A DNA stretch of 26,834 nucleotides, taken from IMG/VR virus record IMGVR_UViG_3300025120_000448, positions 1 to 26,834 of that record. One strand, 5' to 3'. Each line of letters starts with the position of its first letter. The first letter of the stretch is position 1. Positions 8,811-26,834 of this stretch are shown here, one piece after another. The notes beneath the pieces are model-generated. The model saw only the letters and a program-made list of their open reading frames with translations. It was not told the DNA's origin and did not search any database. This stretch comes from a virus. A program made the position numbers and the translations under genes.

Positions 8811-8844
8811 AAGATCGGGGCTTCGGCCTCGGTCTTTTTTTTTT
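8811..8844 (+). terminator. Rho-independent terminator after the capsid gene
   Basis: The stem GATCGGGGC (8813-8821) pairs with GCCTCGGTC (8826-8834) around a TTCG loop (8822-8825). That gives nine pairs, two of them G-T wobble, with a C-G pair closing the stable UUCG tetraloop. Ten T residues follow (8835-8844), and two A residues at 8811-8812 can pair with the first T's. It is the most GC-rich stretch in an AT-rich window and starts 12 bases after the capsid stop. It should end or reduce transcription after the capsid gene, so capsid messages could outnumber those of the downstream tail genes. Confidence 0.92.
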
Positions 8845-8864
8845 AATTTTTATTATATTATATT

Positions 8865-9707
8865 ATGGCAAAGAAACAAAGTAAGGCAAAACAAGAGCCT
8901 AAGGTTAATGAAATACAAGAAACCTACACAAGCACCAACGATATGGTTGAGGCTACAATTAAATATCCAAAACAAAAAGAAGATACCTGGGAAATAAAAG
9001 ATAGAATGTATTATCTTAAAAATGGTAGATCACCTCTAACTTACATGATAAGAGGTAGTAACGTTTTTTATTTTGATGAAAATCTAGGATATGAAAGAGA
9101 GTTGAAGTACACTTCAAATCAAAGAACACCGTTTGTAGATGAAATGAAAGGTGAACAGAGGTTAGAGCATATTATATTTCAAAATGGAGCTTTATTTGTA
9201 CCAAAAAATAAAACTGTTTTACAAAAAATGCTTTCAATTTACCATCCTCACAATGGTACATTGTTTGAAGAGCATAAACCTCAAGAAGTTGCAGCTAGTG
9301 AAATAGATATATTAGAGCTTGAAATAGAAGCATTGACAGCGGCTCAATCTTTAGATATTGAAATGGCTGAAGCTGTTATGCGTGTAGAAGTTGGTTCTCA
9401 AGTTAATAACATGAGTTCTAAGGAACTTAAAAGAGATTTACTATTATACGCTAAGAGAAACCCAAGCTTGTTCTTAGAATTAGTGAATGATGATAATGTG
9501 CAGTTGCGTAACTTTGGTATTAAAGCTACTGAGCTAGGAATTATCAAACTATCAAGTGACCAACGTACATTTATGTGGGGTACTAATGATAGAAAATTGT
9601 GTACTGTACCTTTTGATGAACACCCTTATTCTGCTTTAGCCGCTTGGTTTAAAACAGATGAAGGAATGGAGATATATTCCAACATTGAAAAACGCTTAAA
9701 CGCGTAA
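8865..9707 (+). CDS. Conserved phage protein downstream of the capsid gene (function unknown)
   Basis: A 280-aa protein with a basic N-terminus (MAKKQSKAK), then a compact mixed domain at about residues 42-130. That domain includes MYYLKNGRSPLTYMI (48-62), a GYERELKYTSNQRTPF stretch and KMLSIYHPHNG (121-131). A long acidic helix (about 142-178) follows, and then a C-terminal domain (about 185-280). The C-terminal domain holds LRNFGIKATELGIIKL (214-229) and PYSALAAWFKTDEG (254-267) and looks like a small winged-helix-type fold. I recognise the overall pattern as recurrent in marine phage genomes without a known role. The position right after the capsid gene suggests an auxiliary capsid or head-completion protein, by inference. 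It lies between the terminator at 8811 and the hairpin at 9714. Confidence 0.8.
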   Translation: MAKKQSKAKQEPKVNEIQETYTSTNDMVEATIKYPKQKEDTWEIKDRMYYLKNGRSPLTYMIRGSNVFYFDENLGYERELKYTSNQRTPFVDEMKGEQRLEHIIFQNGALFVPKNKTVLQKMLSIYHPHNGTLFEEHKPQEVAASEIDILELEIEALTAAQSLDIEMAEAVMRVEVGSQVNNMSSKELKRDLLLYAKRNPSLFLELVNDDNVQLRNFGIKATELGIIKLSSDQRTFMWGTNDRKLCTVPFDEHPYSALAAWFKTDEGMEIYSNIEKRLNA

Positions 9708-9713
9708 CTATCT

Positions 9714-9759
9714 TATAGTAGAGCAGCCATTCTACAAAAGGATGGTTGCTTTAACTATA
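9714..9759 (+). promoter_or_regulatory. Long hairpin upstream of the connector gene, possible attenuator or weak terminator
   Basis: The arm at 9714-9732 (core GCAGCCATTC) pairs with the arm at 9740-9759 (core GGATGGTTGC) around a 7-base loop (TACAAAA). TATAGT at 9714-9719 also pairs with ACTATA at 9754-9759. This gives about 19 pairs with a few G-T wobbles and one bulged A at 9753. Only a short T run (9750-9752) lies within the lower stem, so it is a poor classical terminator. It fills most of the 63-base gap and ends 11 bases before the next ATG. It could protect a message end, act as an RNase site, or modulate translation. Confidence 0.6.
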
Positions 9760-9770
9760 AAACATAAACA

Positions 9771-10964
9771 ATGGCAATAAGTATAAATACAGTATACCAA
9801 AAAGTCTTGGCTATCGCCAATAAAGAACAAAGAGGTTATATCACACCTCAAGAGTTTAATCTATTTGCAGATCAAGCTCAAAAAGAAATATTTGAACAAT
9901 ATTTTTATGATATAAATCAATTTAATAGAGTGCCAGGTAATTCAACTGAGTTTTCTGATCAACTTTACATGCTAGAAGAAAAGATTTCAGCATTTAGAGT
10001 TAATGGTGTTTCAATGGTTTCTAGCACTGAGCTAGTAACTAGATCAACATTTGAAGCTGGAGTTACTACAGGTTGGACAGATAGTACTGGTGATAATTCA
10101 GCTCCTACTGTAGTTACAGAAGCTCTCAATGGTTATGTGCCTAGTTTAAAATTAATAAACGATGGTAGTGATGACGATCCTGATATTTATGAAGACATAA
10201 TACTTTCAACCTCTAAAAAATATAGATTAAAAGTTAAAGTTTCTTACGCTGTTGATCCAACAGGTGCTGGTGACAGTGTAGGTTTAAAAATACAAGCTTT
10301 TTCAACTGCAGGAACTGAAGACGGTTATTATTTACTACAAGTATCTGCAGTTACCGGTGGTGAGTACTTTTTAGACTTTGAACCATTAGACTACGCAGGT
10401 GGTGGAGGTGCAACTGAAACTTACAGGATACAAGTAGGCTTAGAAGAAGATACTTTAGATAGCACTATAATACATTTTTCTGAAATATCTGTTAAAGAAA
10501 TTGATAATACAACTTTAGCTTCTGATATTTATAGATTAGGTGATGTTACTTACAAAAACACAGGAAGCTCTTATCCTATTGGTATTAGCGAAGTAAACAC
10601 TGCTGAATTAACTAATTATAATTTATCATTACTAACTAGACCTACAGTAAGTAATCCTGCTTATGTGAGAAGTAGTAATACTTCTATAACGATATATCCA
10701 ACAACATTAACTAGCGGTTCTTCAGTTTCTTATAATTACGTAAAAAATCCAGTTAGTCCAAAGTGGACTTATAATGTAGTATTAGGAAAAGCTGTTTATA
10801 ATGGCTCTGCTAGTGACGCTAAAGACTTTGAGCTACATGACTCAGAAGAAAACACTTTAGTATATAAAATATTAGAGTTAGCTGGTATATCAATGGGAAG
10901 AGCAGATATAGTACAAGCCGCGGCTACTAGAAGTATACAAGAAGTACAACAACAAAAATCTTAG
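9771..10964 (+). CDS. Head-tail ring/connector protein with an inserted beta-sandwich domain
   Basis: A 397-aa protein. Residues 1-80 begin with an NTVYQKVLAIANKEQRGYIT helix-and-turn pattern. They continue with PQEFNLFADQAQKEIFEQYF (26-45) and LEEKISAFRVNG (68-79), which I recognise as the start of a conserved short-tail connector or ring protein in marine and crAss-like phages. The same fold seems to resume at about 246 (TLASDIYRLGDVTYK) and runs through SITIYPTTL (305-313), YNYVKNPVSPKWTY (321-334) and DFELHDSEENTLVYKILELA (352-371). Between them, about 84-245 forms a separate domain with the order FEAGVTTGW, SLKLIN, KKYRLKVKVSY, YRIQVGL and FSEISVKE, typical of a jelly-roll carbohydrate-binding-like domain. 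The next ring gene starts 3 bases downstream. The connector role is inferred from position and motifs. Confidence 0.75.
   Translation: MAISINTVYQKVLAIANKEQRGYITPQEFNLFADQAQKEIFEQYFYDINQFNRVPGNSTEFSDQLYMLEEKISAFRVNGVSMVSSTELVTRSTFEAGVTTGWTDSTGDNSAPTVVTEALNGYVPSLKLINDGSDDDPDIYEDIILSTSKKYRLKVKVSYAVDPTGAGDSVGLKIQAFSTAGTEDGYYLLQVSAVTGGEYFLDFEPLDYAGGGGATETYRIQVGLEEDTLDSTIIHFSEISVKEIDNTTLASDIYRLGDVTYKNTGSSYPIGISEVNTAELTNYNLSLLTRPTVSNPAYVRSSNTSITIYPTTLTSGSSVSYNYVKNPVSPKWTYNVVLGKAVYNGSASDAKDFELHDSEENTLVYKILELAGISMGRADIVQAAATRSIQEVQQQKS
10020..10505 (+). other. Jelly-roll carbohydrate-binding-like domain inserted in the connector protein
   Basis: Residues about 84-245 of the 397-aa connector break the conserved ring fold. 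The segment runs FEAGVTTGW (94-102), VPSLKLIND, then DIILSTSKKYRLKVKVSY (142-159), VGLKIQAFS, GEYFLDFEPL (197-206), ETYRIQVGL (216-224) and IIHFSEISVKEI (233-244). That is the usual jelly-roll order with a terminal I-S-V-K-E strand. Boundaries are by eye and the carbohydrate-binding role is not demonstrated. Confidence 0.5.
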
Positions 10965-10967
10965 TAA

Positions 10968-11855
10968 ATGGCACTAATAGAAGAGACAGGATCAAATTAT
11001 TATAATGGAAATAATATTGGTGGTTATCAATTTACTTCTTTACAAGATATAGTTAATCAATTTATGATAGCCTACGTTGGTGAAGATAAAATTATTGGTA
11101 GAATTAAAAAGCCAGACATTTTATTTCACGCACAGCGCGCTTTGCAAGAATTAAGTTTTGATACTTTTAAATCTACTAAAGCTTACGAAGTTGTTATACC
11201 TCCTTCTTTGTCTATGCCTTTACCTCAAGATTATGTTAATTATACTAAAGTATGTTGGGTTGATAAGTCAGGTGTTGAACATAGAATATATCCAACCGCG
11301 GACACTAGTAATCCTTCTAATATAGCTCAAACAGCAACACCAGATACAGCTCCTTATTATGAGTTTACAAATAATGAATTAGTTTTAAATACTGAATCTG
11401 ATACTTCTACTAGTTTTAAAAATGACAATCCTAATGAAAACGTTGTTAACGATTTTAATTACGATGATGAACTTTACGATCCTAATATTGGTCAAAGGTT
11501 TGGTTTAGATCCTCAAAGAGCTCAAATTAACGGTTCATTTTATATAGATGATATTAGAGGATTTATAAATTTTAGTTCTAATATTTCAGGCAAGACTGTA
11601 ATACTTAAATACATTAGTGATAGTTTAGGTACTGATGCGGAGATGCAAGTTCATAAATTTGCTGAAGAAGCTATGTACAAGCAAATAGCATATGCTGTTT
11701 TGTCTACAAGATCAAACGTTCCTGAGTATGTTGTTGCCAGATTTAAAAAAGAAGCTTTTGCTTCTAAACGAGTAGCTAAGCTTAGATTATCTAATATAAA
11801 AATAGAAGAAATAACTCAAGTACTAAGAGGTAAGTCTAAACACATCAAACATTAA
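10968..11855 (+). CDS. Ring / tail tubular protein (P22 gp4-like or T7 gp11-like role)
   Basis: A 295-aa protein. A helix-rich first part (about residues 22-75) includes FTSLQDIVNQFMIAYVGEDK (22-41) and DILFHAQRALQELSFDTFKS (50-69). A strand segment with PPSLSMPLPQDYVNY (78-92) and SGVEHRIYPT (101-110) follows. A middle acidic loop region and a C-terminal helical bundle containing MQVHKFAEEAMYKQIAYAVL close the protein. The pattern of an N-terminal helical bundle followed by a beta region ending in MPLP-D-YVNY is one I associate with adaptor or tubular proteins that extend the portal channel in short-tailed phages. It sits 3 bases after the previous connector gene and 3 bases before the hub gene. 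No truncation is visible. The exact ring it forms cannot be told by eye. Confidence 0.75.
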   Translation: MALIEETGSNYYNGNNIGGYQFTSLQDIVNQFMIAYVGEDKIIGRIKKPDILFHAQRALQELSFDTFKSTKAYEVVIPPSLSMPLPQDYVNYTKVCWVDKSGVEHRIYPTADTSNPSNIAQTATPDTAPYYEFTNNELVLNTESDTSTSFKNDNPNENVVNDFNYDDELYDPNIGQRFGLDPQRAQINGSFYIDDIRGFINFSSNISGKTVILKYISDSLGTDAEMQVHKFAEEAMYKQIAYAVLSTRSNVPEYVVARFKKEAFASKRVAKLRLSNIKIEEITQVLRGKSKHIKH

Positions 11856-11858
11856 GAT

Positions 11859-14800
11859 ATGCCAGAATTAAGTAACAACTTTCTAAAAGGTCGTATGAAC
11901 AAAGACCTTGATGATAGAATTGTGCCTCGTGGAGAATATAGGGACGCTTTAAATATAGAGGTTTCTACAACTGAAAATGCTGATATAGGAACTGTTCAAA
12001 ACTTAAAAGGTAACAAACAAATAGTATCTGGAATATTTAACTCTATTCATGATTCTAATATATATACTACTGAAGGCGCTGGTGTTTATAGTAGTCTTTA
12101 TACAGACCAATATGGGACTGCAAATAATAATGAATCAACTTCTAGTAATGTTTTTAACGAAATAATATATAATCCTAGCATAATACCTTTAACTTCAACT
12201 ACTAATATAGGTCATAGATCTACAATATTAGAAATAGGTAAAAGTTATACTGTAACTTTTGATGTAGAAGTTAATATAAATAATTATAATACTGATGGAG
12301 AGTATACTTATACAGCTGGAATAGTTGGTTCTGAAGATTCTGATAATTTTACTAGTACCATAAACGTTCAAAACAATGTTCTTATAGCTAACGCAGATAG
12401 TTCAACTGGAGTTTTGTTTACTAACTTTACAAAAACTTTCTTTGCTCAAAACGAATACATACAAATATATGCTAGTAAATCTTTTTCAGGATTAATAAAA
12501 AATATAACAGTAGTAGAATCTAATGTTTTGGTTAGTGATAGTAGTAATGCTATAACTGTTGGATCTAAAGAAGATACTACTACTGACACAATATACAACT
12601 TTGTTTACAAAGCTTCAGACGTTAAGTCTAGTACTTTTTCTAACTCACAAGGTATTGTAAAGTCAGTAAATGTTGGTATAGTTAGCGATTGTATTATATC
12701 TCACAAACCAAATACTTCAACTGAAGATTCAGTAGATGAAGTTGTTTTTACAGATGTGTATAAAGTTGTTCTTGCACCTATTAAATCTTCTACTGGTAAA
12801 TTACCAATGTCTACATCTGACGGTATACCTACTTCTACTACTATAACAGGTTTGCCTTACATAGTTAACGAAGAAGGTATTACAGAAATACAAGGAATTA
12901 GATTAGGTATGGATATTGCATATATAAATACTTCTGGCATAGACTTTTGGGCTGGTAAAGGCGTTAAAGTAACTAACATTTACTTTGACACTAATACTTC
13001 TACTGGTGCTATAACTATAACTAATCCACATAGCGTTAATTTATATAACAATAATGCAGTGGAAGAAGGTCATACTTTAGAATTTACTTCGAATAGAATA
13101 TTAAACTTTACATGTGGTACTATAGAAAAAGAACTTAATGTAGATAATACCCCAAGTAGTAATTCTCCAATAGGTACTAACATACATGCTATCAACATTG
13201 TAGAAGATTTTATATATTTTACTGATGGCAGAAATGAGCCTAAAAAAATAGATATAAAAAGATTTACAGAGTCTACAAGAAGTATATTTCATCATACTTT
13301 TTTAACAGAAATAAATACTTCAGATCCTGTAAAATTTGCTGTTGAAGAAAAACATGTTACTGTTATAAAAGCAAAACCTACATCACATCCATACTTGTTG
13401 ATGAACGGTAAGTTTAGAAATAAAACTGGTTATATAAAAATATCTGGAAATATATACAATGGTAAAGGAGATTTTCCCGCTGCTTTTTATGCTGTAGAAA
13501 CTTCTTGCTTAGTTCAAAGTGATTCTTTTGAGCCAATAACATTTTTAAAAGATGATGATAATATAAAATCTTTTAATACTGAAATTGGAATAGGAGTAAG
13601 TATAAACAATATTAACTGGAAAGAAGGAGATAATATTATACTTACAGGCTTGACTAGTACCAAAAAAGTTAATATTAGAATAGTCAATGCTCTACCCAAC
13701 TCTTTACAGTTCAATAAGTTTACAGTTAAAGTTATATCTTTTGATTCAAGCTATGAGCATAATAATTTTCAAGCAGAATCTTGGACAGCAGAGCTAGAAG
13801 CTCCTAAAGCAATATATGAAAGAAACTTTGTTTCTTTTGCAACAAGATATAAATACGATAATAACGAATATTCGGCTATTGGTCCTTACTCAGAAGCAGC
13901 TTTTTTACCCTCAGCATATTCTTATAAAGCTGAAACAGGATTTAACGCTTCTATGGAAAACACTTTAAGATCTTTAGAAATATTTGACTTTGTACCTAGT
14001 GACATACAGAAAGACGTTAAAGCTGTAGATATAATACTTAAAGATCATTTTTCTACTAACGCTTACGTTATAAAAACTGTAGAAAAAGATACGCCTGAAT
14101 GGAATACTATAGGTCACGGTGCTAATCAAGGTAGGTACGAGATAAATTCAGAAGTTAAAGGTACTACAGTTCCATCGTTACAACTGTCTAGAGTTTTTGA
14201 TGCTGTACCTGTAAAAGCTAAAACTCAAGAGTTTATAGCTTCTAGATTAATGTATGGTAATTACACTGAGAGTTACAACATGGTAGATCATGGTCAGTCT
14301 AGCATTGATTTTTCAATGATTAGTGATTTTGAAAACATAGACGGTTATACAGTAGATTTGGGTACTGGTAGCTCACCTAATGACTTGTTTGCTAGTTGTA
14401 ACCCTTTTTTCGATGTTACTACAGAGTCTCACAAGTATATTCATAATTACTTCAAGCAACAACATCAACTTACTCCAGAAGCTTCTAACAATTATGACGA
14501 TACAGACACTAGTAGCAGTCAAGCTATTTTTTGCGCAGAAGACATAGATACTTTTTATAATGGTGGCACAGTCGGTAATGGACCTAGATATGCTAAAGTT
14601 TTAATACCAATAATTCCAAAAGACGAAGATAATGATGATAATGTAACGCATTTGTTTCCTAGTTTAAATGACTTAGCTTCTTCATCTAACGACGAAGGTG
14701 CTTCTGGTAATTATCAAGATTTTAATTGTACTCATGATGACACTTATAATACAGGAGTAAACGAGCCAGGTAATAATGAATTATCATCAAGTATTACTCC

Positions 14801-17672
14801 GTTTATATATAAGCTACCTTCAGACGGTGAATACACTATAAATGTTAGTACAAGAGCTAATGCTAGATATTTTTACGGTAAAGATTTACATACACTTTGG
14901 GCAGCATCTGGAGCCCCAAATAGTCACACTGCTCAATGGAGTCCAGGTCCAACTCAACTTAGCAAGGCTATGCCTTCAAGATTAGAAGTACATAAAGTTG
15001 ACATAGCAGGTAATTCTTTAGGTATAATAAAGGATTCAGAAAACTTATTAAATACTAACACGCCTTTTGCTACTACAAAATACAGTACGTACGCTGCTTC
15101 TGAATTACTTACAGAAGAACCTTTAAACGGTAAGCAATATAGATTAACCCAAGGGTCAAAACCTTTACATAATCATAGAAACACAAACAGCGGAGACTCT
15201 CCTAATATACCTTACCATCAATTACGTCGTAAAATAACCGTTGGTACAGGTAGTAGCTTGTCGGCCAATGATTATATAGGTATTTTCTACGTGTACCAAG
15301 TGAGTTTTCTTCCTACAACAAACACGCCTGTATACACACCACCTTTTGTTGATTACAATATTGCACTTGGTCAATCGTATGCTAGCTTTACTCCTAATCA
15401 TGCTGAGAACGCTAACATAAGGTTTTTAATAGACTCTACGACAACAGTTTATAACATAGACGCACCTTTAACAACTAATAGCGTAGAAGTTTACAAACCA
15501 GCTAAGTCAGTGAAATCTAATAGATCTTACGAGACTGGAGTTACTTATTTAGATGAGTACGGTAGAGAAAGTACTGTTATGATAAGTGAGACTGCTAGTT
15601 TAGAAATAAACGAAAAGTTTAGTGATAAAAAAAATATTATAACATCTTGTATAAAATCTAATGCTCCAAAGTGGGCAACACACTACAAGTATTATATAAA
15701 GGAATCTGGCCAAAAAACTCCTAATATAGTTATGTATAAAGCATACTCTAACGAAGAAAGTGGAGATAGTAGTTATGCCTGGCTTTCATTTAATTCAAAT
15801 GACTTTAGTAAAGTTAATGTTGATGATTATCTTTTAGCTAAGAAAATGCACGGTAATAATAAAGCTGTTAACAATATACTTGCTAGATACAGAGTTCTAG
15901 ACGTTTCAGCTCAAGTTCCTAGTTTTGTAACTGATGATGGTGAAACTACTCCTTTACAAGTTACAGCTTCTGATGCTTCAGGTAAGTTTTTTGTAAAAGT
16001 AGAAAGATTAGGATTAATACATATTATAAATGAATCAACAGATGACGCTTTTTTTGCTTTTGCTGCTGATGACGCTAACACAGCTATAGGTGCTGTGTTT
16101 GAAATAGAATCAGAATCTGCAAGTAATGAAGGATTCTTTTGGGAAACTTCAAAAGCATATCCTATTATTTTAAATAATAAAACTATACATCAATACATTA
16201 CTGCTGGTGACAAAATAGAGATGGATTCACTCTATGATCCTGCAACTGGTCTTTATTTAAAATCTGAAGAAATACACATATGGAATCAAAACAACACCAG
16301 CGTTAAAGTTCTTGATGCTAATGGTGCTGTATCTTTTCCTAACGTAATTAATACTTTAGATGATAATCAACTTTGTACTATAGTACTTAATAAATCTGTA
16401 GGTTTAGTTTCTTCTAATTTAAACGGAAATTACATAATAGCTAAGTTTGTAAAAGAAGATGGGTCGTATGTTACAGCTAGAGTAGCTAATATAGATAATA
16501 ATTCAATAACAATAATTCCTTATACTCACCCTGTTTCAAAAGTTGCTCAAGGAGCTTTAAATAAAATAGCTCTACCTTGGTTCAACTGTTTTACTTGGTT
16601 CAATGGTGTTGAATCAGACACTATAGGTGATATTTTTAATGGTAAAACATTATATCCTTACATTTCAGGTGGTAAACAAAGTGGTTTTAATGCAAGTGAT
16701 TATTTTGCTGATTACGGTGAAGAAAACAATAAGCATGACATTATATACTCTCAACTACTAAATGAATCTTCTAATATAGATATGACTAATCAATTTATAT
16801 TAGCAGATAGTATAATTAAAAAACTAAACTCAAGTCACGGTCAAATAAATAGTATAATAAGTAGAAACAATGACTTGTTAGTTTTCTGTGAAGACAAGGT
16901 GCTTAAAATATTAAGCTCAGGCAAAGACGCTTTGTTTAATGCTGATGGTAATCCTCAACTCATAGCATCTAATAGAGTTCTTGGACAGTCAATGCCTTTT
17001 GTAGGTGACTTTGGTTGCCAACATCCAGAATCTATAGCTGTAGATGAATATAGAGTCTATTTTATAGATAAAGCTAGAGGATGTGCGCTTAGACTGTCTA
17101 GAAATGGTATAACACAAATATCTAACGAAGGTATGAGTACTTGGTTTAATGAAAACTTAGAAAAAGCTCAGTCTGTAGTTGGTAGTTTTGATGATAAAAA
17201 ATCTGAGTACAATATAACAGTACATGACATAACTTCATCTTTAGTAGATAAAAACGTTTATACTTTAAGTTTTGATGAATCTGCTAACGGTTGGGTTAGT
17301 TTTAAATCTTTCATACAAGAAAATGGTTTAAGTTTAAATAATCGATATTATACATTTAAAAAAGGAAGAATATACTTACATCATAGTGATGATGCTTTAC
17401 GTAATAATTTCTATGGCGTTCAAGGTAACTCAACTGTAACTAGTCTGATCAACATGCAACCTAATATAGTGAAGTCTTTTGCTGTTATAAACTATGAAGG
17501 CTCACAAGCTGAAGTAGTGAAAAGTTTAACAGACGACAGGCACGACAATATACAAGCAAAGTCTGGATGGTCTGTGGAGCTTTTAAAAACAGATCAACAA
17601 GAAGGTTTGGTAGAAGAGTTTATAGAAAAAGAAGGCCGTTGGTATAATAATATAAAAGGTAAAAAAGAATAA
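11859..17672 (+). CDS. Giant tail hub / stabilization-like protein
   Basis: A 1937-aa protein, the largest complete gene here. It opens with FLKGRMNKDLDDRIVPRGEY (8-27) and RDALNIEV (28-35), a start I recognise from hub or stabilization proteins of marine short-tailed phages. An apparent jelly-roll insertion lies at about 60-225, after which the conserved fold resumes with VGSKEDTTTDTIYNFVYKAS (234-253). A FVSFATRYKYDNNEYSAIG segment begins at about residue 657 and is fibronectin-like. Many Ser/Thr/Asn-rich beta stretches follow. At about 1661-1765 a propeller-like region includes LLVFCEDKVLKIL and RVYFIDKARGCALRLSRNG. It has no signal peptide or membrane segment. It follows the ring genes, and its stop overlaps the BACON gene as TAATG. 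The role is inferred from synteny; a tail spike or fibre component is possible. Confidence 0.75.
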   Translation: MPELSNNFLKGRMNKDLDDRIVPRGEYRDALNIEVSTTENADIGTVQNLKGNKQIVSGIFNSIHDSNIYTTEGAGVYSSLYTDQYGTANNNESTSSNVFNEIIYNPSIIPLTSTTNIGHRSTILEIGKSYTVTFDVEVNINNYNTDGEYTYTAGIVGSEDSDNFTSTINVQNNVLIANADSSTGVLFTNFTKTFFAQNEYIQIYASKSFSGLIKNITVVESNVLVSDSSNAITVGSKEDTTTDTIYNFVYKASDVKSSTFSNSQGIVKSVNVGIVSDCIISHKPNTSTEDSVDEVVFTDVYKVVLAPIKSSTGKLPMSTSDGIPTSTTITGLPYIVNEEGITEIQGIRLGMDIAYINTSGIDFWAGKGVKVTNIYFDTNTSTGAITITNPHSVNLYNNNAVEEGHTLEFTSNRILNFTCGTIEKELNVDNTPSSNSPIGTNIHAINIVEDFIYFTDGRNEPKKIDIKRFTESTRSIFHHTFLTEINTSDPVKFAVEEKHVTVIKAKPTSHPYLLMNGKFRNKTGYIKISGNIYNGKGDFPAAFYAVETSCLVQSDSFEPITFLKDDDNIKSFNTEIGIGVSINNINWKEGDNIILTGLTSTKKVNIRIVNALPNSLQFNKFTVKVISFDSSYEHNNFQAESWTAELEAPKAIYERNFVSFATRYKYDNNEYSAIGPYSEAAFLPSAYSYKAETGFNASMENTLRSLEIFDFVPSDIQKDVKAVDIILKDHFSTNAYVIKTVEKDTPEWNTIGHGANQGRYEINSEVKGTTVPSLQLSRVFDAVPVKAKTQEFIASRLMYGNYTESYNMVDHGQSSIDFSMISDFENIDGYTVDLGTGSSPNDLFASCNPFFDVTTESHKYIHNYFKQQHQLTPEASNNYDDTDTSSSQAIFCAEDIDTFYNGGTVGNGPRYAKVLIPIIPKDEDNDDNVTHLFPSLNDLASSSNDEGASGNYQDFNCTHDDTYNTGVNEPGNNELSSSITPFIYKLPSDGEYTINVSTRANARYFYGKDLHTLWAASGAPNSHTAQWSPGPTQLSKAMPSRLEVHKVDIAGNSLGIIKDSENLLNTNTPFATTKYSTYAASELLTEEPLNGKQYRLTQGSKPLHNHRNTNSGDSPNIPYHQLRRKITVGTGSSLSANDYIGIFYVYQVSFLPTTNTPVYTPPFVDYNIALGQSYASFTPNHAENANIRFLIDSTTTVYNIDAPLTTNSVEVYKPAKSVKSNRSYETGVTYLDEYGRESTVMISETASLEINEKFSDKKNIITSCIKSNAPKWATHYKYYIKESGQKTPNIVMYKAYSNEESGDSSYAWLSFNSNDFSKVNVDDYLLAKKMHGNNKAVNNILARYRVLDVSAQVPSFVTDDGETTPLQVTASDASGKFFVKVERLGLIHIINESTDDAFFAFAADDANTAIGAVFEIESESASNEGFFWETSKAYPIILNNKTIHQYITAGDKIEMDSLYDPATGLYLKSEEIHIWNQNNTSVKVLDANGAVSFPNVINTLDDNQLCTIVLNKSVGLVSSNLNGNYIIAKFVKEDGSYVTARVANIDNNSITIIPYTHPVSKVAQGALNKIALPWFNCFTWFNGVESDTIGDIFNGKTLYPYISGGKQSGFNASDYFADYGEENNKHDIIYSQLLNESSNIDMTNQFILADSIIKKLNSSHGQINSIISRNNDLLVFCEDKVLKILSSGKDALFNADGNPQLIASNRVLGQSMPFVGDFGCQHPESIAVDEYRVYFIDKARGCALRLSRNGITQISNEGMSTWFNENLEKAQSVVGSFDDKKSEYNITVHDITSSLVDKNVYTLSFDESANGWVSFKSFIQENGLSLNNRYYTFKKGRIYLHHSDDALRNNFYGVQGNSTVTSLINMQPNIVKSFAVINYEGSQAEVVKSLTDDRHDNIQAKSGWSVELLKTDQQEGLVEEFIEKEGRWYNNIKGKKE
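12036..12533 (+). other. Jelly-roll carbohydrate-binding-like domain inserted in the hub protein
   Basis: Residues about 60-225 of the hub protein form a self-contained beta-rich unit. In order it has ILEIGKSYTVTFDVEVNI (123-140), GEYTYTAGIVG (147-157), LFTNFTKTFF (186-195), EYIQIYASKSF (199-209) and GLIKNITVVE (211-220). This strand order, ending in an I-x-N-I-x-V-x-E strand, is usual for carbohydrate-binding-module-like jelly rolls in phage tail proteins. Conserved hub sequence seems to lie on both sides. The boundaries are estimates by eye. Confidence 0.5.
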
Positions 17673-20600
17673 TGGGATTAGATACTTCTAAAATAAGCTT
17701 GCAAGGTCTTGGCGTTTTAAATGCTAATGCCACTATGGTTAGCGGATCAGCTCCTTCTACTACGTTTAACGTGGTAGTTAGTATTTCAGCTGTAGACCCT
17801 AAATGGACTACTGAAGGATTAACTTTAAGTAATGTATCTAGCGTAAGCGGACAGTCTACATTTTTAATAACTTCAAAACCTGGATTTCAAATTAGTTCTT
17901 CTTTTTTTAATTACAACCCTGATGTAGCTGAAGTTTCAACTTTGTTTAGTAGTATAAGCTTTACGAACACAACAAATAATTTAGACACTAACAATCAAGT
18001 TTTAGTAACTATAAATTGGATTACACAAAGTATAACTAGTGATACAAACATAGTATTAAGTAATATTCAAATACAACAACCTACAGCTGGTAATTTACTC
18101 TATGAAGCAAGAGTTGTAGTATTTCACGGCGGTAATGTAGATATATATATAGAAACAAGTTTTACTGAAGAAATATCAAATCCTGAAGAAAACACATATC
18201 AATCTATACTCCAAGGATTAATGGTGGAAAATGAAACTGCTTTAGTTGGTAAAGTGTATATGACACCTACTTTGAATGGAGGAGCTTTTGTAGGACCACC
18301 AAATTGTTCCGTAAGTGGTCCTGGCTCTGATAGTTACACTTTACAAACTTATTATGAATACAACCAACAAGTAGTAGAAATATTTGCTACACCAACACTA
18401 GAATTATCACAAGATAATCAAGCTGAAACAATATCTATAACGTCTAATCAATATCAAAATAGCTTTGATACGCAAAACTTAAATGGTGTTGCTACTTCTC
18501 AATTCAGTATCTCGGATGAAGATCAACAAACATCAGAAGCTTATCAAGAGTTAGAAGTAAAAATAATTGGTAACTACGCTATATTAGCTGGCTGGGAAGT
18601 CTATCAAAATCCTTATGACGGAGAAACTGGTGCTACTTGGATTCCTGATGCAAATATTGAGTGGGATGAGTCAACTAATATTTTAAAGTTAAGAGTTAAT
18701 AATAATTCAGGAGCAGAAAGGCAAGCTGTTATAAATTTATTTTCTACTGTCAATGGTAATATACCATTAGGTAGTTTTTTTGTTACACAAACAAAAAGCA
18801 GTTTTTTAAGTGTAGACGTTGCTAACGTAACAGCTAATGTTCCAACAAACTTCGATGGCTCTAGCATTGATTTTCCTATAACTGGTGGAAGTTTAATTAT
18901 TTTAGCAGTAATAGAAGATTATAACGTTTTTACTAGCACAGCTGGATTAGTTACTGCTTTACCTACATCAGATAGTATAACAAACGGTAATAACAATACT
19001 AATTGGTTTACTTTTGGTGACGGGTATTTACTAAATAATACTGTTGCTTTTGTCTGTACTATATCTGGTAACACCTCTTATGGTAATGGAACTAGAGAGT
19101 TAACCTTCACTGTTAAGCATCCACTTGATAGTAGTCTAACTAAAAGTATAAATATAACTCAAGCAAGAGCTTATGATCCTTCTGTAGACACGTTAGACAT
19201 TTACAGTATAGCTAATCCTAGCACTAATGAAGATGTTAGTTTAGAGTTTGAAGGAATTTCAGGGACTAACAACTACTATGTACAAGGTACTGTTGCAAAC
19301 GCTGATGATTTATCTGTGCCAGGTGAATCACCTTTGACCACTCATGATGCTGTATTGCAAATGGATTTTGGCGGTGCAGCATTAATAGATACACCTACTG
19401 TTTTATTAAGATATATAAATAGCACTGGTTCTGAAACTACAGTTTTACCTGGAGGTGAAATAAACAATGGGTTTTTTGGCTTTAATCAGTGGGCTGAAAT
19501 AATTGACATAGACAGCATTGGTATTAGTTCTAATTTTCAATATGATTACTTCGCGCTTATAAATATACAAGACAATGATAGTTACTATGAAACTAGGCAA
19601 GTTGTTGCTGAAGTTTATCATCCTAATTCATTAGTTCAAGATTTAGTCTCTGCTGTACCTGTTAGATCATTAACAATTACTCAACAGGTTAAATCTGGCG
19701 CGTTTTTTATAGCTCCTGATACTACTGAGCATGTGTTTGATATTTTAGCTGATAACACAAGTGAAACTTTTAGTTTTAATATGTTTTCTTCAAACGGTTT
19801 GCCAGTTGTTAGACTTGAAAGCACTGAAACATTTAACTACCCCAACGGTGAACCAACCGTTAATAATCAAAGCAATATTGTTTTTCATATATTTGATGGT
19901 AATGGTGGTACTGGTAACACAGATGGCTTAGTGAATAGCTTTACTCAGGCAGCTGGAGCCGCGGCCGTAGATTCAACTTTAACTGTTAACATATCTCAAA
20001 ATACTGTACAAGAATTTTCAAATAATCACATTAGATTTAAACAACACATTTTTAAATGTTGGCCAAATGGAACTACAATAAACGCTGCTCAAGCAGGTAA
20101 TAACGTAATAACTTACACTACTCAACCAAGTAGTACTTTAATAATAAATCAATACGCTTTAACTGATCCACAATCTATAGAGTTAACAGGTTTTATGGCT
20201 TCCCTTTTATCAGATGGAGACTTTACACCTGCAGCATACTCTATGAGCGGCCAATATAACTACACGCAACTAAGCACTGTCATGGGATCTTTATTCTATA
20301 GACCTAATAGACCTCAAAGCGCACCAACATATAATGGTGGATTAGCGGGTATGGTTAACTTGCATAATAGTCATCAAGTAAGCAATCAACTTAGTTACAA
20401 TTCGTCTTTTAATAACGCCATATGCATGGTTATAGGTTTAGAAACTTCACCTTCTTACGAAGCAGCTACTATAGAATTTGTAAATCATAGGTATCATGAG
20501 GCAGATGGAAGTATAATAGCTGCTACTGGCGTTCTATTGTCAGATCATTTTACTAGCTTTTCAATAGTTACTGATAGCAGTGGCCAAGCGTGGAGTTCGC

Positions 20601-20755
20601 AAGGAGATTTTGATAAATATATTAAAATAAATTTATCCCCTAAATCTTCTTTTAGTTCAGGTGGTAAGACTGTAGATAATATTGAAACAGTATTTAAATT
20701 ACGTATTGGAGACAATTTTGAAAAACAACTACGTATATCTACTAAAATGACTTAA
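17672..20755 (+). CDS. BACON-repeat adhesin / tail protein
   Basis: A 1027-aa, almost all-beta protein rich in Ser, Thr and Asn. Several segments end in the pattern typical of BACON domains, an Arg followed by alternating hydrophobics and then a (V/I)-(T/S)-Q strand. They are R350 with FFVTQT (369-374), R476 with SINITQA (492-498), R642 with SLTITQQ (666-672), and a weaker copy ending TVNISQN (771-777). BACON domains are known in Bacteroidota glycan-active proteins and in crAss-like phage tail proteins, where they are thought to bind mucin or surface polysaccharide. The C-terminal 240 residues (from about HIRFKQHIF, 786) differ and may be a fold-specific tip. It has no signal peptide, as expected for a virion protein. 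Its start shares a base with the hub stop. The receptor-binding role is inferred. Confidence 0.7.
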   Translation: MGLDTSKISLQGLGVLNANATMVSGSAPSTTFNVVVSISAVDPKWTTEGLTLSNVSSVSGQSTFLITSKPGFQISSSFFNYNPDVAEVSTLFSSISFTNTTNNLDTNNQVLVTINWITQSITSDTNIVLSNIQIQQPTAGNLLYEARVVVFHGGNVDIYIETSFTEEISNPEENTYQSILQGLMVENETALVGKVYMTPTLNGGAFVGPPNCSVSGPGSDSYTLQTYYEYNQQVVEIFATPTLELSQDNQAETISITSNQYQNSFDTQNLNGVATSQFSISDEDQQTSEAYQELEVKIIGNYAILAGWEVYQNPYDGETGATWIPDANIEWDESTNILKLRVNNNSGAERQAVINLFSTVNGNIPLGSFFVTQTKSSFLSVDVANVTANVPTNFDGSSIDFPITGGSLIILAVIEDYNVFTSTAGLVTALPTSDSITNGNNNTNWFTFGDGYLLNNTVAFVCTISGNTSYGNGTRELTFTVKHPLDSSLTKSINITQARAYDPSVDTLDIYSIANPSTNEDVSLEFEGISGTNNYYVQGTVANADDLSVPGESPLTTHDAVLQMDFGGAALIDTPTVLLRYINSTGSETTVLPGGEINNGFFGFNQWAEIIDIDSIGISSNFQYDYFALINIQDNDSYYETRQVVAEVYHPNSLVQDLVSAVPVRSLTITQQVKSGAFFIAPDTTEHVFDILADNTSETFSFNMFSSNGLPVVRLESTETFNYPNGEPTVNNQSNIVFHIFDGNGGTGNTDGLVNSFTQAAGAAAVDSTLTVNISQNTVQEFSNNHIRFKQHIFKCWPNGTTINAAQAGNNVITYTTQPSSTLIINQYALTDPQSIELTGFMASLLSDGDFTPAAYSMSGQYNYTQLSTVMGSLFYRPNRPQSAPTYNGGLAGMVNLHNSHQVSNQLSYNSSFNNAICMVIGLETSPSYEAATIEFVNHRYHEADGSIIAATGVLLSDHFTSFSIVTDSSGQAWSSQGDFDKYIKINLSPKSSFSSGGKTVDNIETVFKLRIGDNFEKQLRISTKMT

Positions 20756-21164: not shown

Positions 21165-21899
21165 ATGGCAATAGGAAAACAATCACCGTTCAAGATTTTT
21201 GGTAGTAGACGTAGAAAGGAAGAGCAAGATAAAGCTAATCAAGAATTTAACACTCAAATGAGTGATTATCAAAATTTTGATGTAGGTAGTAATATATATG
21301 GTAATTATCAAAATGTTTACGCTGATGCGCAAAACGTGTATGCTGGAGCTGAAAATGTATTTGAAGGTATGGAAAATACTTTTGAAGATCTTAGAGTTGA
21401 TACCACTGGAGCAGAGCTTGGTGGTCAACAGTTCGCACAGTCACAAGCTGATCAACTAGCTGCTTTAGGTGGTGGTGTTAGCGGTGCTGGATTTGGTGCT
21501 TTAACTTCTACTATGTCTAGACAAGCAGCGCAACAAGCTGCAGGTACACAAGCTAATATTGCTGGACAAGTAAGACAAAATGAAATGGCTAGAGCTACGG
21601 GTGCTGCAAATATTCAGCAAGCAGAAAGATCAGGGGCTGCTGCTCAACAGGGATTAATATTAAGTGGAGCTGCCGAACAGCAACGTTTAATGTTAAGTGG
21701 CGCTGATACAGCACAACAAATGCAGTTTGCAGGCGCTGAAAATGCTTTTAATAGACAATTTAGTCAACAACAAGAATTACTAGCTATGGCTGCTGGTAGG
21801 AAAACAGCGGCAGATCAAGCTAGAGCTCAAAACACTCAAATGTGGATGGGATTAGCTGGAGATATAATTGGAGCTGGTACTACAATAGCGACAGCTTAA
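21165..21899 (+). CDS. Ala/Gln-rich repeat protein, candidate internal (ejection) virion protein
   Basis: A 244-aa protein with a basic N-terminus (1-20). A tandem 7-residue repeat (43-77) is followed by a FEDLRVDT segment, then a Gly-rich hinge (102-112). A long Ala/Gln-rich helical region carries an 11-residue repeat (145-199), and the protein ends in a weakly hydrophobic Gly/Ala/Ile segment (226-244) that could enter a membrane. The FEDL-V-x-T plus Ala/Gln pattern is one I recognise in marine phage proteins placed just before giant internal proteins. Size and helical makeup recall T7 gp14-type core proteins that are ejected into the host envelope, though I see no direct homology. The leader is AT-rich, with no Shine-Dalgarno. 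Confidence 0.72.
   Translation: MAIGKQSPFKIFGSRRRKEEQDKANQEFNTQMSDYQNFDVGSNIYGNYQNVYADAQNVYAGAENVFEGMENTFEDLRVDTTGAELGGQQFAQSQADQLAALGGGVSGAGFGALTSTMSRQAAQQAAGTQANIAGQVRQNEMARATGAANIQQAERSGAAAQQGLILSGAAEQQRLMLSGADTAQQMQFAGAENAFNRQFSQQQELLAMAAGRKTAADQARAQNTQMWMGLAGDIIGAGTTIATA
21291..21395 (+). repeat. Five tandem 7-residue coding repeats
   Basis: Residues 43-77 of the 244-aa protein divide into five units of seven with consensus N-(I/V/T)-(Y/F)-x-x-x-(Q/E/R). Asn is invariant at position 1 and an aromatic residue is invariant at position 3. DNA units are 21 bases and diverged, so this is protein-level periodicity rather than a recent DNA expansion. Confidence 0.85.
21597..21761 (+). repeat. 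Five tandem 11-residue coding repeats (hendecads)
   Basis: Residues 145-199 of the 244-aa protein divide into five 11-residue units with consensus (S/T/A)-G-A-(A/D/E)-x-x-x-x-x-x-x, Gln-rich in the middle and ending in Leu, Phe or Arg. Gly-Ala at positions 2-3 is invariant. Eleven-residue periodicity fits a right-handed coiled coil or a long membrane-lying amphipathic helix. Confidence 0.85.
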
Positions 21900-21919
21900 G
21901 CATAGATAAAAACAAAAAC

Positions 21920-23296
21920 ATGAAAAAATCACCAATAAAATATAACGCAAACTTAGTTCAAAAAGTTGTTGCAGCTTACCAAAGCAGTAATGCAGTTAGT
22001 CAAGCCGCTACTCAAGGTATAGCTTTTAATATTGGTAAAACAATGAAAGGTATAGCCGAGGCTTCTAAACAAAAAAAAGACAGGCTGTTAACTCAAAATG
22101 TTGCTAAAAACGCTAACGTAGAAAACTTTACTGAAATTGAAGTAAAGAACTTAATGAACTTTAAAGATCAATATGATGACGTTGCTTCTAAGTTATCAAG
22201 ACCATTTTTAAACAAACAAAAAAAAGCTGAACTAAACTTACAGCTTAACAAAATAAATAAAGCAACAGCTACATATGTCGGTAGTGTTAAACATGTTATG
22301 GCAAGGCAGAAAGAAGCTTTAGCTGGTGATAAATCTAGATCAAGCGCTTACGATCATCAACAACACATGACTTGGGACAGGTTTGCTACTGGTGAAGCTA
22401 GAGAAGAAGCGTCATCCTCTGTTGATTTTGAGACTGGCGAGATGTTTATTCAAGATCCTTATGGCTCTACTGGTGACACAATGAATGTAATGAACTGGGG
22501 AGCGTTAAAAGTAGTTGATCCTACTTGGTTAAACAGCGATACTAAAACTTCAAAAACGTCTAATGGTTTAGCAAAGAATTTAAATATAACTTCTGATGTT
22601 GCTAAAGAGCAGATTAGAAATGAAGTTTCTAATAATTACTATAGTAATCCTTCAGCTATATGGGATCACACTTCAAGCAGAAATAATGATTTTGCAGATT
22701 ATTTAATAAATAGTGATAAGTTTGAAGACTTAATGAAAGCTAAATATCCTAGTGAGTTTGCTGAGTTGGAAACTTTAGAGTCTAACAAAGATGATGAAGG
22801 TTTTTATGACTTAGTTAAACAAAAAGCTAGAAAAGAAGACATGTCTGAGTATTGGGTTGACTTTAGAACTGAAAAACAAATGAATCAATTTAATAGCTCT
22901 AGAGAACAAGTAGAGTTAAATAACCAAGTTACTGGAGATGATTCTAAAAAATATACTTCTTCGCAAAAAGTTAAGTTTAATACATTTGTAAGAAGCTTTA
23001 ATTCTGGTGGTAACATATACATTGGCGATGGTAGTGTTGTTAAGAAAAATAAAAGTGGTGACTATGACTTGTACAACAGTAGTGGTCAACCTGTATTAAA
23101 ACCAGGATCAAGAACTGAAAGTAATCCTAGTGGTGAAATGATGACATTAACTTACAATGACATTATAAACAAAGCAGGATTACCAGAAGAGTTTGTAAAT
23201 CAATTAAACTTTGATAAAGATCAAAGAGATTCTTATTTAGATGGACCGTTTCCAGGTGTTGCAAACACTAACGTATCTACAAAAAAATTACCTTAA
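21920..23296 (+). CDS. Candidate internal virion / cargo protein, 458 aa
   Basis: I place the start at ATG 21920, giving 458 aa beginning MKKSPIKYNANLVQKVV. An earlier in-frame ATG at 21842 would add 26 Trp/Tyr-rich residues that read across the end of the upstream gene and look like out-of-frame translation. The protein is helical and charged through about residue 140 (with KAELNLQLNKINKATATYVG), then has DHQQHMTWDRFATGEAREE and an EMFIQDPYGSTGD stretch, followed by mixed segments. It has no membrane segment or known enzyme motif. It lies between the repeat protein and the giant peptidase-motif protein, where short-tailed phages usually encode internal or cargo proteins. I do not recognise a family. 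Confidence 0.75.
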   Translation: MKKSPIKYNANLVQKVVAAYQSSNAVSQAATQGIAFNIGKTMKGIAEASKQKKDRLLTQNVAKNANVENFTEIEVKNLMNFKDQYDDVASKLSRPFLNKQKKAELNLQLNKINKATATYVGSVKHVMARQKEALAGDKSRSSAYDHQQHMTWDRFATGEAREEASSSVDFETGEMFIQDPYGSTGDTMNVMNWGALKVVDPTWLNSDTKTSKTSNGLAKNLNITSDVAKEQIRNEVSNNYYSNPSAIWDHTSSRNNDFADYLINSDKFEDLMKAKYPSEFAELETLESNKDDEGFYDLVKQKARKEDMSEYWVDFRTEKQMNQFNSSREQVELNNQVTGDDSKKYTSSQKVKFNTFVRSFNSGGNIYIGDGSVVKKNKSGDYDLYNSSGQPVLKPGSRTESNPSGEMMTLTYNDIINKAGLPEEFVNQLNFDKDQRDSYLDGPFPGVANTNVSTKKLP

Positions 23297-23335: not shown

Positions 23336-26300
23336 ATGTACGAATTCGAAGATGCTCTTTTCACCGAGAACGACGTGATACAAAGAGCGCAAGAAAAAGG
23401 TATGACAATGGATGAATATCTATCTCAAAATCCTGAAATAATTAAAGTTGATGAGGGAAAGGAGAACGATACTGCGACAACGGACACAGCGTCAGTATCA
23501 GATACGGTGTCCACATTGGAAAATGGTTCTTCGGAGCAGTTTGTAGCTCCAATAGGTAGTAGAAATGAATGGATAACAAATGATTTTTTTAACCTACAAG
23601 AAGAAGAGGCAAAAGGTCAATTAAAACAAAGATACCCTGATTTTGAGTTTAGCGAAACAGGTAAGTTTTTTCCATTTGATGAAGCTACAAAAAACGATCC
23701 TAGATCTAATCAAAGATTAGGTTTATCTAACTTTATAGAAGTTAAAGCTCCTAATGGTGAGAAATTATTACTTGAAACAGCTTTAAGTTCTTCTAATAAA
23801 AATGTAGTCAATAAAAAAGGTGGTAAAGATTTTTTAAATCAATACTATAAAGATCAGATAAAAGATTTAACAAACTTTATTGATATTAATCAAACGGCAA
23901 AAACAGAAGACTTATATACTGCTAAAAAGAAAAGACGAACTATATATGAAAAGTTTAATGAATCAACAAAACTTACAGACCAAGAATTAAAAAGTATAGA
24001 AGAAGAATTTAAAGATATAAGTGTATTTGACACTAAAAGATCTAAAGACTTTGTTGGTTACATACCAACAAGAGAAAGAGTACCAGGTTTACCTGAGTAT
24101 AAAGACATTACAACTCAGCCTTATAAAGACATATTAAAACAAGCTAAAGCTAAGTTAAAGAAAGAAAAAAAAATAGATTTTAATGACGATAATGCAATAA
24201 AAAAAGAAGCTTTAGTTATTTTAAAGAACAATGCACGTGAATCTATTCGTAATAAAAAAACTAAAGAATATTTAGAGCAAATTGAAGCTGGGCAAATACC
24301 AGATGTATTAAAAGAAGATTTTGCAAATCTTATAAATGAAGGTGACAGGATAAATGTAAAAGATATAAAACCTCTTATAACTGTAGGTTCTAAAGAATAC
24401 GATGAAGATTTAACTTCTTTTATGCTTGGAACTGTTAAACAGAAAACAGAAGTAGAAAACTTACAGTCTGAGCTTCAGAAGATAATAGACAAGAAAGTCT
24501 ACAATGAAGAAGACAAAGTTCAATACGAAGATATATTTAAAAAATACGAATCTAGCATCAATGACTATAATGATACAGTAGAAGCCTTAAGCAGTTTTGC
24601 TGTTGATATGAAGAATAAATCTGCTCAATTAAACTTGTTACAAAAAAACTATAATGATTGGGATAAACAAGGTGCTAGCTTACTTTTAAATTTTAGAGAC
24701 TTTGCTGCAAAAGCAGTTTATGGTATATCATCTTTAGTAGGTGCAGATGGTAATTTGCCAGATAAAGTTGATCCTACAAGAACCAGAGAAGAAGTAAGAA
24801 CGCAAGACTTAGTTAATACTTTAAATCAATCTCAAATAATACGCAGTGGATATGGAGAGGATGTTTCTTTTGACAATGCTTTTAAAAGCCCAGCAAACTT
24901 TGCTAAGTGGACAGTATCTATGGGTAATAGCCAGTTGCCAATACTAGCATCGTTAGCTACACCTGGTGGATGGTCAGCATTACTTTTAAGTTCTTTTGGT
25001 GAGAACTATAAAGAAATGACATATGAAGAAATGAAAACCAAAGCTGCAGCAGAAGAGTTAGGTCTTGATTATTCAACTCCTGAGTACTTTGAAAAAAACA
25101 GCAAGTTCAATAAGTGGGCATTTAGTATGATGTTTGCGGCTCCAGAAGTTCTTCTCGATAGAGCAACTACCGGTATGCGAATCAGAGGTGTAAAAGAAAT
25201 GTTCACTAAGTCTAGTAAAGATCAACTCATAGATACAAATTTAAAAGAAGTAATGTCAAACTTAGCTTTTGGATTACCTCAAGACGCAACTTTAGGTGCA
25301 CTCTCTGAAGGTACTACTCAACTTTGGCAAAACTTCCTTACAGGTAAAGAAGATATTTGGGAAGGAGTTGATGAAGCTGCGTTTTCTGGTTTATTAATGG
25401 ACGGTGTTTTAAGTAGTATGCCTACACTTAAAGCTGCTGTTTATACACAAATGTCTGATCCTCAGAAAATTAAAGAAATACAAGCTGCTAAGAAAAAGTT
25501 AGACATGCTTTATACTGTTAGAGACAATGCTCCAACTGGAGGTTCTTTAGATGCTGAAATAAAAAATTTAGAAAAAGAAATAGACGACAAGATTAGAGAG
25601 AACGTAGATTCAATAATAGGTATTGGATCTAGAGGTTTAACGGCAACGGCTATAAAAGATTACGTTGTATTAACTGCACAAAAAGCCACATTAAAAAATA
25701 GAGCTCAAAGCATTATTAATGACAATCTTATTACAGAAAGTCAAAAACAAAAAATGCTCAGCGAATTAAGTGTTCAGTATGAAGCTATAAAACAAATACA
25801 AAAGAAGTATGAGTCAGAAAAAGGATCTGAGTTTTCAATGTTTGCTGCCAACCCAAAAAACAAAGCTGTAGTAGATTTATTTGTAAGACAAGCTAAAACT
25901 GATTTAACTAAAGAAGGTAAAAAAAATATTTCTGATTTAGAAATACAAGATAGAGCCAGAGAGTTGTATAATAAAAGTAAAATACTTGAAAACGTTAATG
26001 CAGCTAAAAAAAATAAACTTGATAAAGGCTTAATAGTAGTAAAATCAGAACAAGAGTTTAACGAGCTTATTGAAAAAAATATTGATAAAATAAAAACATC
26101 AGAATTTTCTGAAACTGCATCTTTGTACAAAAATGGAGGATATGGTTTTAACCTTGATGGAATGTCAGTTATAATAATTGACAATATGGCTAAAGATGAT
26201 AGGCTTGAAATTAGAACTCATGAGCTTGGCCACGAGCTTGGAGCTAGGGCTTTCAAGAATAACCCAGCTATATTTAACGGTATGGCTAATACTATATTAA

Positions 26301-26834
26301 ACTGGGCTAAAGTAAACGACGAAAGTTTATTTAATAGAATACAGCGTATAACTGAGCGTAAAAACGATCAACTTATATCAGACGAGGTTATGGCTGTGTT
26401 TTTTGAAGAAGTAGCTGCTAACAGAGTTAATTTAAAGTCTGAAAAAAATCGAGGTTTGCTTTCTATATTTGGTTTTGGTACTAACAAAGCCATGAAAGAC
26501 ACTTATGGTATTGATTTTGATTTAGCAGGTATTGATGACACTTTTAGTTTAATGTACGGAATAGCTAAAAAAATCAGTAAAGGTACTTTAACACAAACAG
26601 ATATAGATGCTTTGTCTGATTCTGATGCTATAAAAGCTTTAGAAAAGCAAGGACGAAAAGCAGTAGGTGAATACATGTTTGCAACTGAAGAAGGAGTTAA
26701 AAAAGCTTCTAAAGTTCAAAGCAAAATTGATGACCTTGGTAATAAATATACTAGAGACGAGTGGGTAGAGTCTGGAGCGGATGAAACAATAGGTGAAATA
26801 TATACTGACTTAGAAGGTTTAATATCTAGCAAGG
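23336..26834 (+). CDS. Giant internal virion-like protein with HELGH metallopeptidase motif (partial, 3' end outside window)
   Basis: I translated this frame from ATG 23336 to the window end and found no stop in 1166 codons. The N-terminus (MYEFEDALFTENDVIQRAQE) is followed by an acidic Thr/Ser linker. Long charged helices run to about 500. A hydrophobic stretch at about 530-556 contains LPILASLATPGGWSALLLSS. The motif EGTTQLWQN (658-666), with following Gly/Ala-rich helices, resembles membrane-active segments of phage internal proteins. More coiled coil follows (about 715-910). HELGH (962-966) is a zinc-metallopeptidase motif with candidate third ligands E1017 or E1024/E1025. Size, layout and last position in the virion block suggest a protein ejected into the cell. 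A tape measure is unlikely because no long-tail genes are present. The enzyme activity is inferred. Confidence 0.8.
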   Translation, partial: MYEFEDALFTENDVIQRAQEKGMTMDEYLSQNPEIIKVDEGKENDTATTDTASVSDTVSTLENGSSEQFVAPIGSRNEWITNDFFNLQEEEAKGQLKQRYPDFEFSETGKFFPFDEATKNDPRSNQRLGLSNFIEVKAPNGEKLLLETALSSSNKNVVNKKGGKDFLNQYYKDQIKDLTNFIDINQTAKTEDLYTAKKKRRTIYEKFNESTKLTDQELKSIEEEFKDISVFDTKRSKDFVGYIPTRERVPGLPEYKDITTQPYKDILKQAKAKLKKEKKIDFNDDNAIKKEALVILKNNARESIRNKKTKEYLEQIEAGQIPDVLKEDFANLINEGDRINVKDIKPLITVGSKEYDEDLTSFMLGTVKQKTEVENLQSELQKIIDKKVYNEEDKVQYEDIFKKYESSINDYNDTVEALSSFAVDMKNKSAQLNLLQKNYNDWDKQGASLLLNFRDFAAKAVYGISSLVGADGNLPDKVDPTRTREEVRTQDLVNTLNQSQIIRSGYGEDVSFDNAFKSPANFAKWTVSMGNSQLPILASLATPGGWSALLLSSFGENYKEMTYEEMKTKAAAEELGLDYSTPEYFEKNSKFNKWAFSMMFAAPEVLLDRATTGMRIRGVKEMFTKSSKDQLIDTNLKEVMSNLAFGLPQDATLGALSEGTTQLWQNFLTGKEDIWEGVDEAAFSGLLMDGVLSSMPTLKAAVYTQMSDPQKIKEIQAAKKKLDMLYTVRDNAPTGGSLDAEIKNLEKEIDDKIRENVDSIIGIGSRGLTATAIKDYVVLTAQKATLKNRAQSIINDNLITESQKQKMLSELSVQYEAIKQIQKKYESEKGSEFSMFAANPKNKAVVDLFVRQAKTDLTKEGKKNISDLEIQDRARELYNKSKILENVNAAKKNKLDKGLIVVKSEQEFNELIEKNIDKIKTSEFSETASLYKNGGYGFNLDGMSVIIIDNMAKDDRLEIRTHELGHELGARAFKNNPAIFNGMANTILNWAKVNDESLFNRIQRITERKNDQLISDEVMAVFFEEVAANRVNLKSEKNRGLLSIFGFGTNKAMKDTYGIDFDLAGIDDTFSLMYGIAKKISKGTLTQTDIDALSDSDAIKALEKQGRKAVGEYMFATEEGVKKASKVQSKIDDLGNKYTRDEWVESGADETIGEIYTDLEGLISSK
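26219..26233 (+). other. HELGH zinc-binding peptidase motif
   Basis: Codons CAT GAG CTT GGC CAC encode HExxH at residues 962-966 of the giant protein. They lie in a helix preceded by the hydrophobic strand SVIIIDN and followed by ELGAR. About 50 residues later come DEVMAVFFEEVAANR (1016-1030), whose Glu residues could be the third zinc ligand of a gluzincin-type site. Confidence 0.6.

Follow-up and report, generated by a model that had tools for sequence, protein, structure and literature searches.

The last gene of a marine crAss-like phage fragment encodes part of a giant protein in which we find what is very probably a zinc-peptidase domain carried in the virion as cargo, a reading that, from sequence comparison, we hold with a probability of about 0.85. 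A sequence-only reading of this DNA had proposed a zinc peptidase that might cut peptidoglycan; the HExxH motif, an invariant glutamate in a later helix and conserved surroundings do predict a zincin-type domain, but the peptidoglycan role found no support. Beyond the predicted domain, we infer zinc binding, catalysis, ejection of the protein and its substrate.

The giant gene lies in a crassvirus-type structural module

The window, i.e., the whole stretch of DNA analysed, is a 26.8-kb IMG/VR fragment (26,834 nt, IMGVR_UViG_3300025120_000448). Because it is a fragment, genes absent from it cannot be called absent from the phage, and the earlier remark that no separate lysin was seen in the window has no weight. 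Its gene content marks the window as a structural module from a marine crAss-like phage: the genes for muzzle, portal and capsid follow the crassvirus order, and the families matched are PF25729, phrog_14478, phrog_6547 (the portal), phrog_13704 (the capsid protein), phrog_13977 and phrog_14543, with two more head proteins present. It is the muzzle (stabilization) protein (1937 aa; 11859..17672, + strand) that identifies the phage as crAss-like, matching PF25729 crAss_MUZ_C at E=2.9e-7 and phrog_14478 at E=5.7e-101. Between the muzzle and the cargo genes lies a 1027-aa protein without a family match (17672-20755), whose counterpart in the relative L006 (described below) is an unlike protein of 471 aa. 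Two smaller genes follow, namely one for a 244-aa Ala/Gln-rich protein, a candidate ejection protein by synteny with the structural genes of Panino and elemoC (21165..21899, + strand), and one for a 484-aa protein 5' of the giant (21842..23296, + strand). The latter occupies the position of a crassvirus cargo protein, as judged from the gene order in crassviruses, and its product gave no match in a family search.

The giant gene itself (23336..26833, + strand) is the last of the window and is represented by its 5' part, encoding at least 1166 aa: the reading frame stays open from 23336 to the 3' end of the window, with no stop, and is cut by the contig end. That the protein deserves to be called giant is borne out by two relatives found in IMG/VR by protein similarity. 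The giant of L002 is 64% identical to the window protein and exceeds 2825 aa, being itself cut, and that of L006 is complete at 2733 aa, with 28% identity to the window protein over 777 aa. The gene lies downstream of the muzzle, matching the position of phi38:1 gp101, elemoC gp90 and crAss001 gp47, and the gene at the comparable place in Cellulophaga phi38:1, the elemo phages and Gundel_1 is annotated as encoding a structural protein. Since known cargo or structural genes occupy this position, the window protein is likely to be located in the virion as cargo, and synteny thus supports the earlier suggestion of a virion-carried protein. Searches of the window protein against Pfam, PHROG and NCBIfam gave no match; neither an LPD nor any other Pfam domain rose over the cut-off in the window protein or two long relatives, and the DxDxD motif of the crAss-like virion RNA polymerase was found in none of P0001, P0002 and P0004.

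The most conserved part of the giant is a block at residues ~430-710 (24623..25465, + strand), which includes a hydrophobic segment at residues 534-552 and is also common to phi38:1 gp101, a protein without HExxH. The segment preceding the peptidase domain is charged and helix-like, and the giants of relatives carry several more domains downstream of the peptidase. The earlier description of the protein as otherwise coiled-coil is therefore imprecise.

A conserved HExxH domain with an invariant downstream glutamate

The HELGH motif (26219..26233, + strand) is in frame at residues 962-966, as numbered in the sequence-only reading, and provides H962, E963 and H966 as predicted zinc ligands and general base. 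The two histidines of the motif are the only ones in the 1166 visible residues, and the number of HExxH motifs expected from the composition of the protein is 0.0003. The motif lies in a predicted zincin-like metallopeptidase domain at residues ~896-1090 (26021..26605, + strand), supported by alignment, AlphaFold and hhalign. The predicted third zinc ligand, E1017 (26384..26386, + strand), sits 50 residues past HELGH in the helix SDEVMAVFFEE, and H962, E963, H966 and E1017 are all kept in L002 and L006.

So that the motif itself did not bias the survey, the C-terminal part of the muzzle served as the IMG/VR query, and 80 loci were taken; the counted set comprised the 37 non-redundant giant ORFs that extend past the ends of those loci and show 900 residues or more. 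Exactly one HExxH was found in 34 of these 37 distinct giants, while shuffling left on average 0.18 sequences, and at most 3, with the motif. The three giants lacking it may be cut off ahead of the domain. A control set from the same loci, 310 further ORFs of 300 aa or more, contained 1 HExxH (2.07 expected). Mostly, the peptidase lies midway along the marine giants, in a single copy; the giant of the related environmental phage ctfjg026 (L091:741-12320, 3859 aa) has two HExxH motifs, at residues 1615 and 2500.

In the alignment of the 34 HExxH domains, which are mostly 11-25% identical to each other, the only invariant columns are H, E and H of the motif, which were fixed by selection, and E1017, which was no selection criterion. 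The HExxH-to-Glu spacing across the aligned domains is 50-79 residues. A lack of conservation of the two histidines and the glutamate among homologues had been set beforehand as a refuting condition; all three are conserved. Among the downstream glutamates pointed out earlier, E1017 is thus the one invariant in 34/34 domains, whereas E1024 is fixed in the close subfamily but not across the larger set. Comparison of the window subfamily (6 sequences) with the other 28 gave an hhalign probability of 98.3%, and 97.1% when the HExxH residues were masked on both sides. As the match survives masking, the similarity is one of a domain and not of a motif. A chance HExxH in a helical protein without a peptidase fold would be in line with the lack of a significant match to solved zincin structures (see below), but it is hardly credible given the low expectation, the retention of the motif in 34/37 giants and in relatives sharing 28-64% identity, the invariant glutamate and the match with the motif masked.

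The same survey bears on a reading in which the domain is an active zincin with a host substrate: once ejected, it would degrade or trim a protein of defence, transcription or the envelope and use the giant as its delivery vehicle. The diversity of the domain beyond its catalytic residues, with four invariant columns in 34 sequences, would fit such a role, as would the effector role that metallopeptidases play in other conflict systems (PMC5512222). An effector would, however, be expected to be more variable in presence than one copy in 34/37 marine giants, and no host target is indicated; we regard a host substrate as possible but unlikely.

Predicted fold and database searches

In the AlphaFold model of the window domain (pLDDT 82, pTM 0.75), HExxH lies in a helix formed by model residues 80-94, and E1017 in one further on, at 136-148. 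For the L048 domain the model (pLDDT 84) comprises an N-terminal helix, three strands and the helices of HExxH and of the Glu, as described for polyvalent-protein zincins (PMC5512222). Foldseek with the window model against the PDB gave globin-like noise and no significant match, and against viral models a best E of 0.06, with some of the matches being giant phage or polyvalent proteins, a hint at most. With the L048 model, lethal-factor entries, which have the zincin fold, topped the PDB list, followed lower down by M32 carboxypeptidases and matrix metalloproteinases, all at E above 0.2. For the check for a zincin fold proposed in the sequence-only reading, the model thus contains the expected elements, but no match to a solved structure was statistically significant. 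On the strength of the models, a zincin fold is likely.

Sequence searches of the PDB gave noise with a 3-row profile and, with the 34-row profile, only two matches, both to small zinc proteases at the motif (E=0.9), too weak to serve as proof. The family searches bear on the proposal that the domain hydrolyses peptidoglycan cross-links at entry. Its position in a presumably ejected protein would suit this task, but no cell-wall hydrolase family was matched in Pfam, PHROGs or NCBIfam, and the signals that came closest were those of other metallopeptidase families and of the zincins of ejected polyvalent proteins. We consider peptidoglycan cutting, which is unsupported by these results, very improbable.

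Comparison with polyvalent proteins, N4 and P1

Zincin-like MPTase domains occur in the polyvalent proteins of phages and plasmids, where self-processing has been proposed (Iyer et al. 2017, PMC5512222). These resemble the window family in the HExxH helix, later Glu helix and three-strand core that the models predict for it, and in being embedded in giant multidomain proteins. Polyvalent proteins are delivered at invasion, and the window protein, a candidate for ejection, would fit this group by its size, mosaic downstream region and cargo synteny. The window family nevertheless differs from the polyvalent MPTase in that 0/20 records matched the PF18818 MPTase-PolyVal HMM at E up to 10; PF20573 gave no useful match on the 20 records either. 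In PMC5512222, crAss-like phages have 0 occurrences.

Two packaged proteins with comparable domains differ in their processing. P1 DdrB, one of the packaged polyvalent proteins bearing HExxH, undergoes cleavage ahead of packaging (PMC5512222). It is annotated as a possible metallopeptidase and, like the window protein, has HELGH, with a strand 'vavNlnde' before it and a Glu motif 'TEVFSMAL' after it; against the marine profile, hhalign gave only 24%, aligned in register at the motif. The virion RNA polymerase of N4 also contains a comparable HExxH domain but enters the particle unprocessed, and a region including the metallopeptidase domain is needed for its encapsidation (PMC5512222). The C1 domain of N4 gp50 (PMC12633501) is like the window domain in its HExxH (HELVH) and lies within an ejected virion protein of ~3500 aa, followed by a large helical part, with 'NEFMAW' as the Glu motif; unlike the window protein, gp50 contains an RNA polymerase domain. 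The single N4 sequence compared with the marine profile gave an hhalign value of 5.5%, which is no profile match, in register.

The N4 findings would favour a zincin-fold domain that is mainly structural or serves packaging, for example by binding the portal or a partner, with little or no catalysis. This we think unlikely, given that each of the four positions predicted to bind zinc or act in catalysis, of which E1017 alone was not selected for, is invariant at such low identity. The theme of a metallopeptidase in a packaged giant is already known from the polyvalent proteins and the N4 virion RNA polymerase; what appears new, from sequence comparison, is the spread of the zincin through crassvirus cargo, including gp47, which we did not find in the literature searched.

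A probable related domain in gut crassvirus gp47, and HExxH in cultured relatives

In crAss001, the muzzle gp44 is followed by the cargo genes gp45 and gp46 and then by gp47, and gp45, gp46, gp47, gp49 and gp50 were detected in virions by mass spectrometry and modelled as ejected cargo (PMC10172136). The protein gp47 (L096:6120-13145) carries an RNA-polymerase-subunit annotation, and at its residue 2157 of 2341 we found HEAFH, followed by EENMAEGFRRF. Its homologues span the gut crassviruses, where the HEAFH zincin-like domain is conserved. A nine-row gut profile matched the main marine family (hhalign 94.9%) but not the window's own small subfamily (1%), and the link between the window protein and gp47 is therefore transitive. 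The two proteins share their nature as virion cargo, which for the window protein is the likely reading, their position after the muzzle and two cargo genes, and HExxH with an acidic helix; they differ in that the zincin of gp47 is near the C-terminus and not mid-protein, and in having no detectable overall similarity. The crassvirus papers searched make no mention of a peptidase in gp47: the words 'protease' and 'peptidase' occur 0 times in both PMC10172136 and PMC7886860, as do 'zinc' in the former and 'zincin' in the latter. Also present in gp47 is a stretch, EVDIL...YDVKTS, that resembles a PD-(D/E)XK nuclease motif.

As in the window protein, there is one HExxH in the structural giants past the muzzle of elemoC (gp90, Elemovirus, 3694 aa) and of the Tenacibaculum phage Gundel_1 (gp74, 2482 aa), both of which a tblastn search with the window protein missed. 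No HExxH was found in the equivalent protein of phi38:1, phi13:2 and Panino, and the domain is thus dispensable in some lineages.

The region downstream of the peptidase and possible self-processing

On its N-terminal side the peptidase is preceded by the conserved block, and what follows it is mosaic. Directly after the peptidase, L002 (13325-14557) has a sigma-70 region-2-like domain, matched by NCBIfam TIGR02937 at E=3.3e-7 and Pfam Sigma70_r2 at E=8e-4; comparison of its profile with two phage sigma factors yielded no clear match either way. By eye, a sigma-like pattern is seen in several relatives. Alignment to P0002 places the start of the segment that in L002 continues into this domain at 26786..26833 (+ strand), so that the window stops where the sigma-like region begins, ahead of any putative cut site. 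The modules of other giants vary. Those in the middle of L002 are unlike those of L006, whose giant (7340-15541) has a HAD-like stretch, STFDFDETVA, in its middle and a small Cys/His finger-like C-terminus (residues 2708-2733). L021 and L079 have nearly the same post-peptidase segment behind unlike N-terminal parts, a pattern that, at the sequence level, suggests module exchange.

The motif [IVLM]x[FY]SK occurs 18 times downstream of the peptidase, compared with 2.9 expected, and 3 times upstream, compared with 3.2 expected. A looser form, [IVLM]x[FY][SA]K, has six copies in P0002, the most in one protein, and recurs after HExxH in P0002, L021, L048, L057 and others, often ~500 residues on. 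We rejected [IVLM]x[FY]SK as an established cleavage site, as many giants with the peptidase have no FSK-type motif and it lies outside the window.

Of the two substrates in view, the giant itself and host proteins, the former, which means self-processing, fits best, and we give an even chance to the proposal that the domain cuts the giant protein itself around ejection, by a mechanism that would run as follows. The head would hold the giant until it is threaded down the tail and into the host, where it would refold; while it is being ejected or afterwards, the peptidase would cut its own chain or that of a neighbouring copy. The conserved N-terminal part, presumably for delivery, would thereby come apart from the variable modules behind the peptidase; in the closest relative these begin with the sigma-factor-like domain, which could start early transcription. 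Self-processing is favoured by the location of the domain between the conserved block and the mosaic region, by the cutting of P1 DdrB and by the enrichment of [IVLM]x[FY]SK solely downstream of the peptidase. It is disfavoured by the packaging of the N4 virion RNA polymerase uncut and by the giants that lack the FSK-type motif, and no cleavage product of the giant protein is known. A bolder version, in which crassvirus cargo proteins are injected polyproteins whose zincin, conserved from marine to gut phages, cuts at [IVLM]x[FY]SK linkers and frees a sigma-70-like factor that redirects the host RNA polymerase, we judge to be improbable.

Significance for crassvirus biology

Few known phages are as abundant as the crassviruses, yet to our knowledge no activity has been assigned to most of their injected proteins. 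A predicted metallopeptidase that is near-universal in the marine giants and recognizable in gp47 offers a concrete enzymatic hypothesis for a cargo protein annotated as an RNA-polymerase subunit, and one that is open to test in the cultured phages crAss001, the elemo phages and Gundel_1. If true, it would link crassvirus ejection to polyvalent-protein and N4-type strategies.
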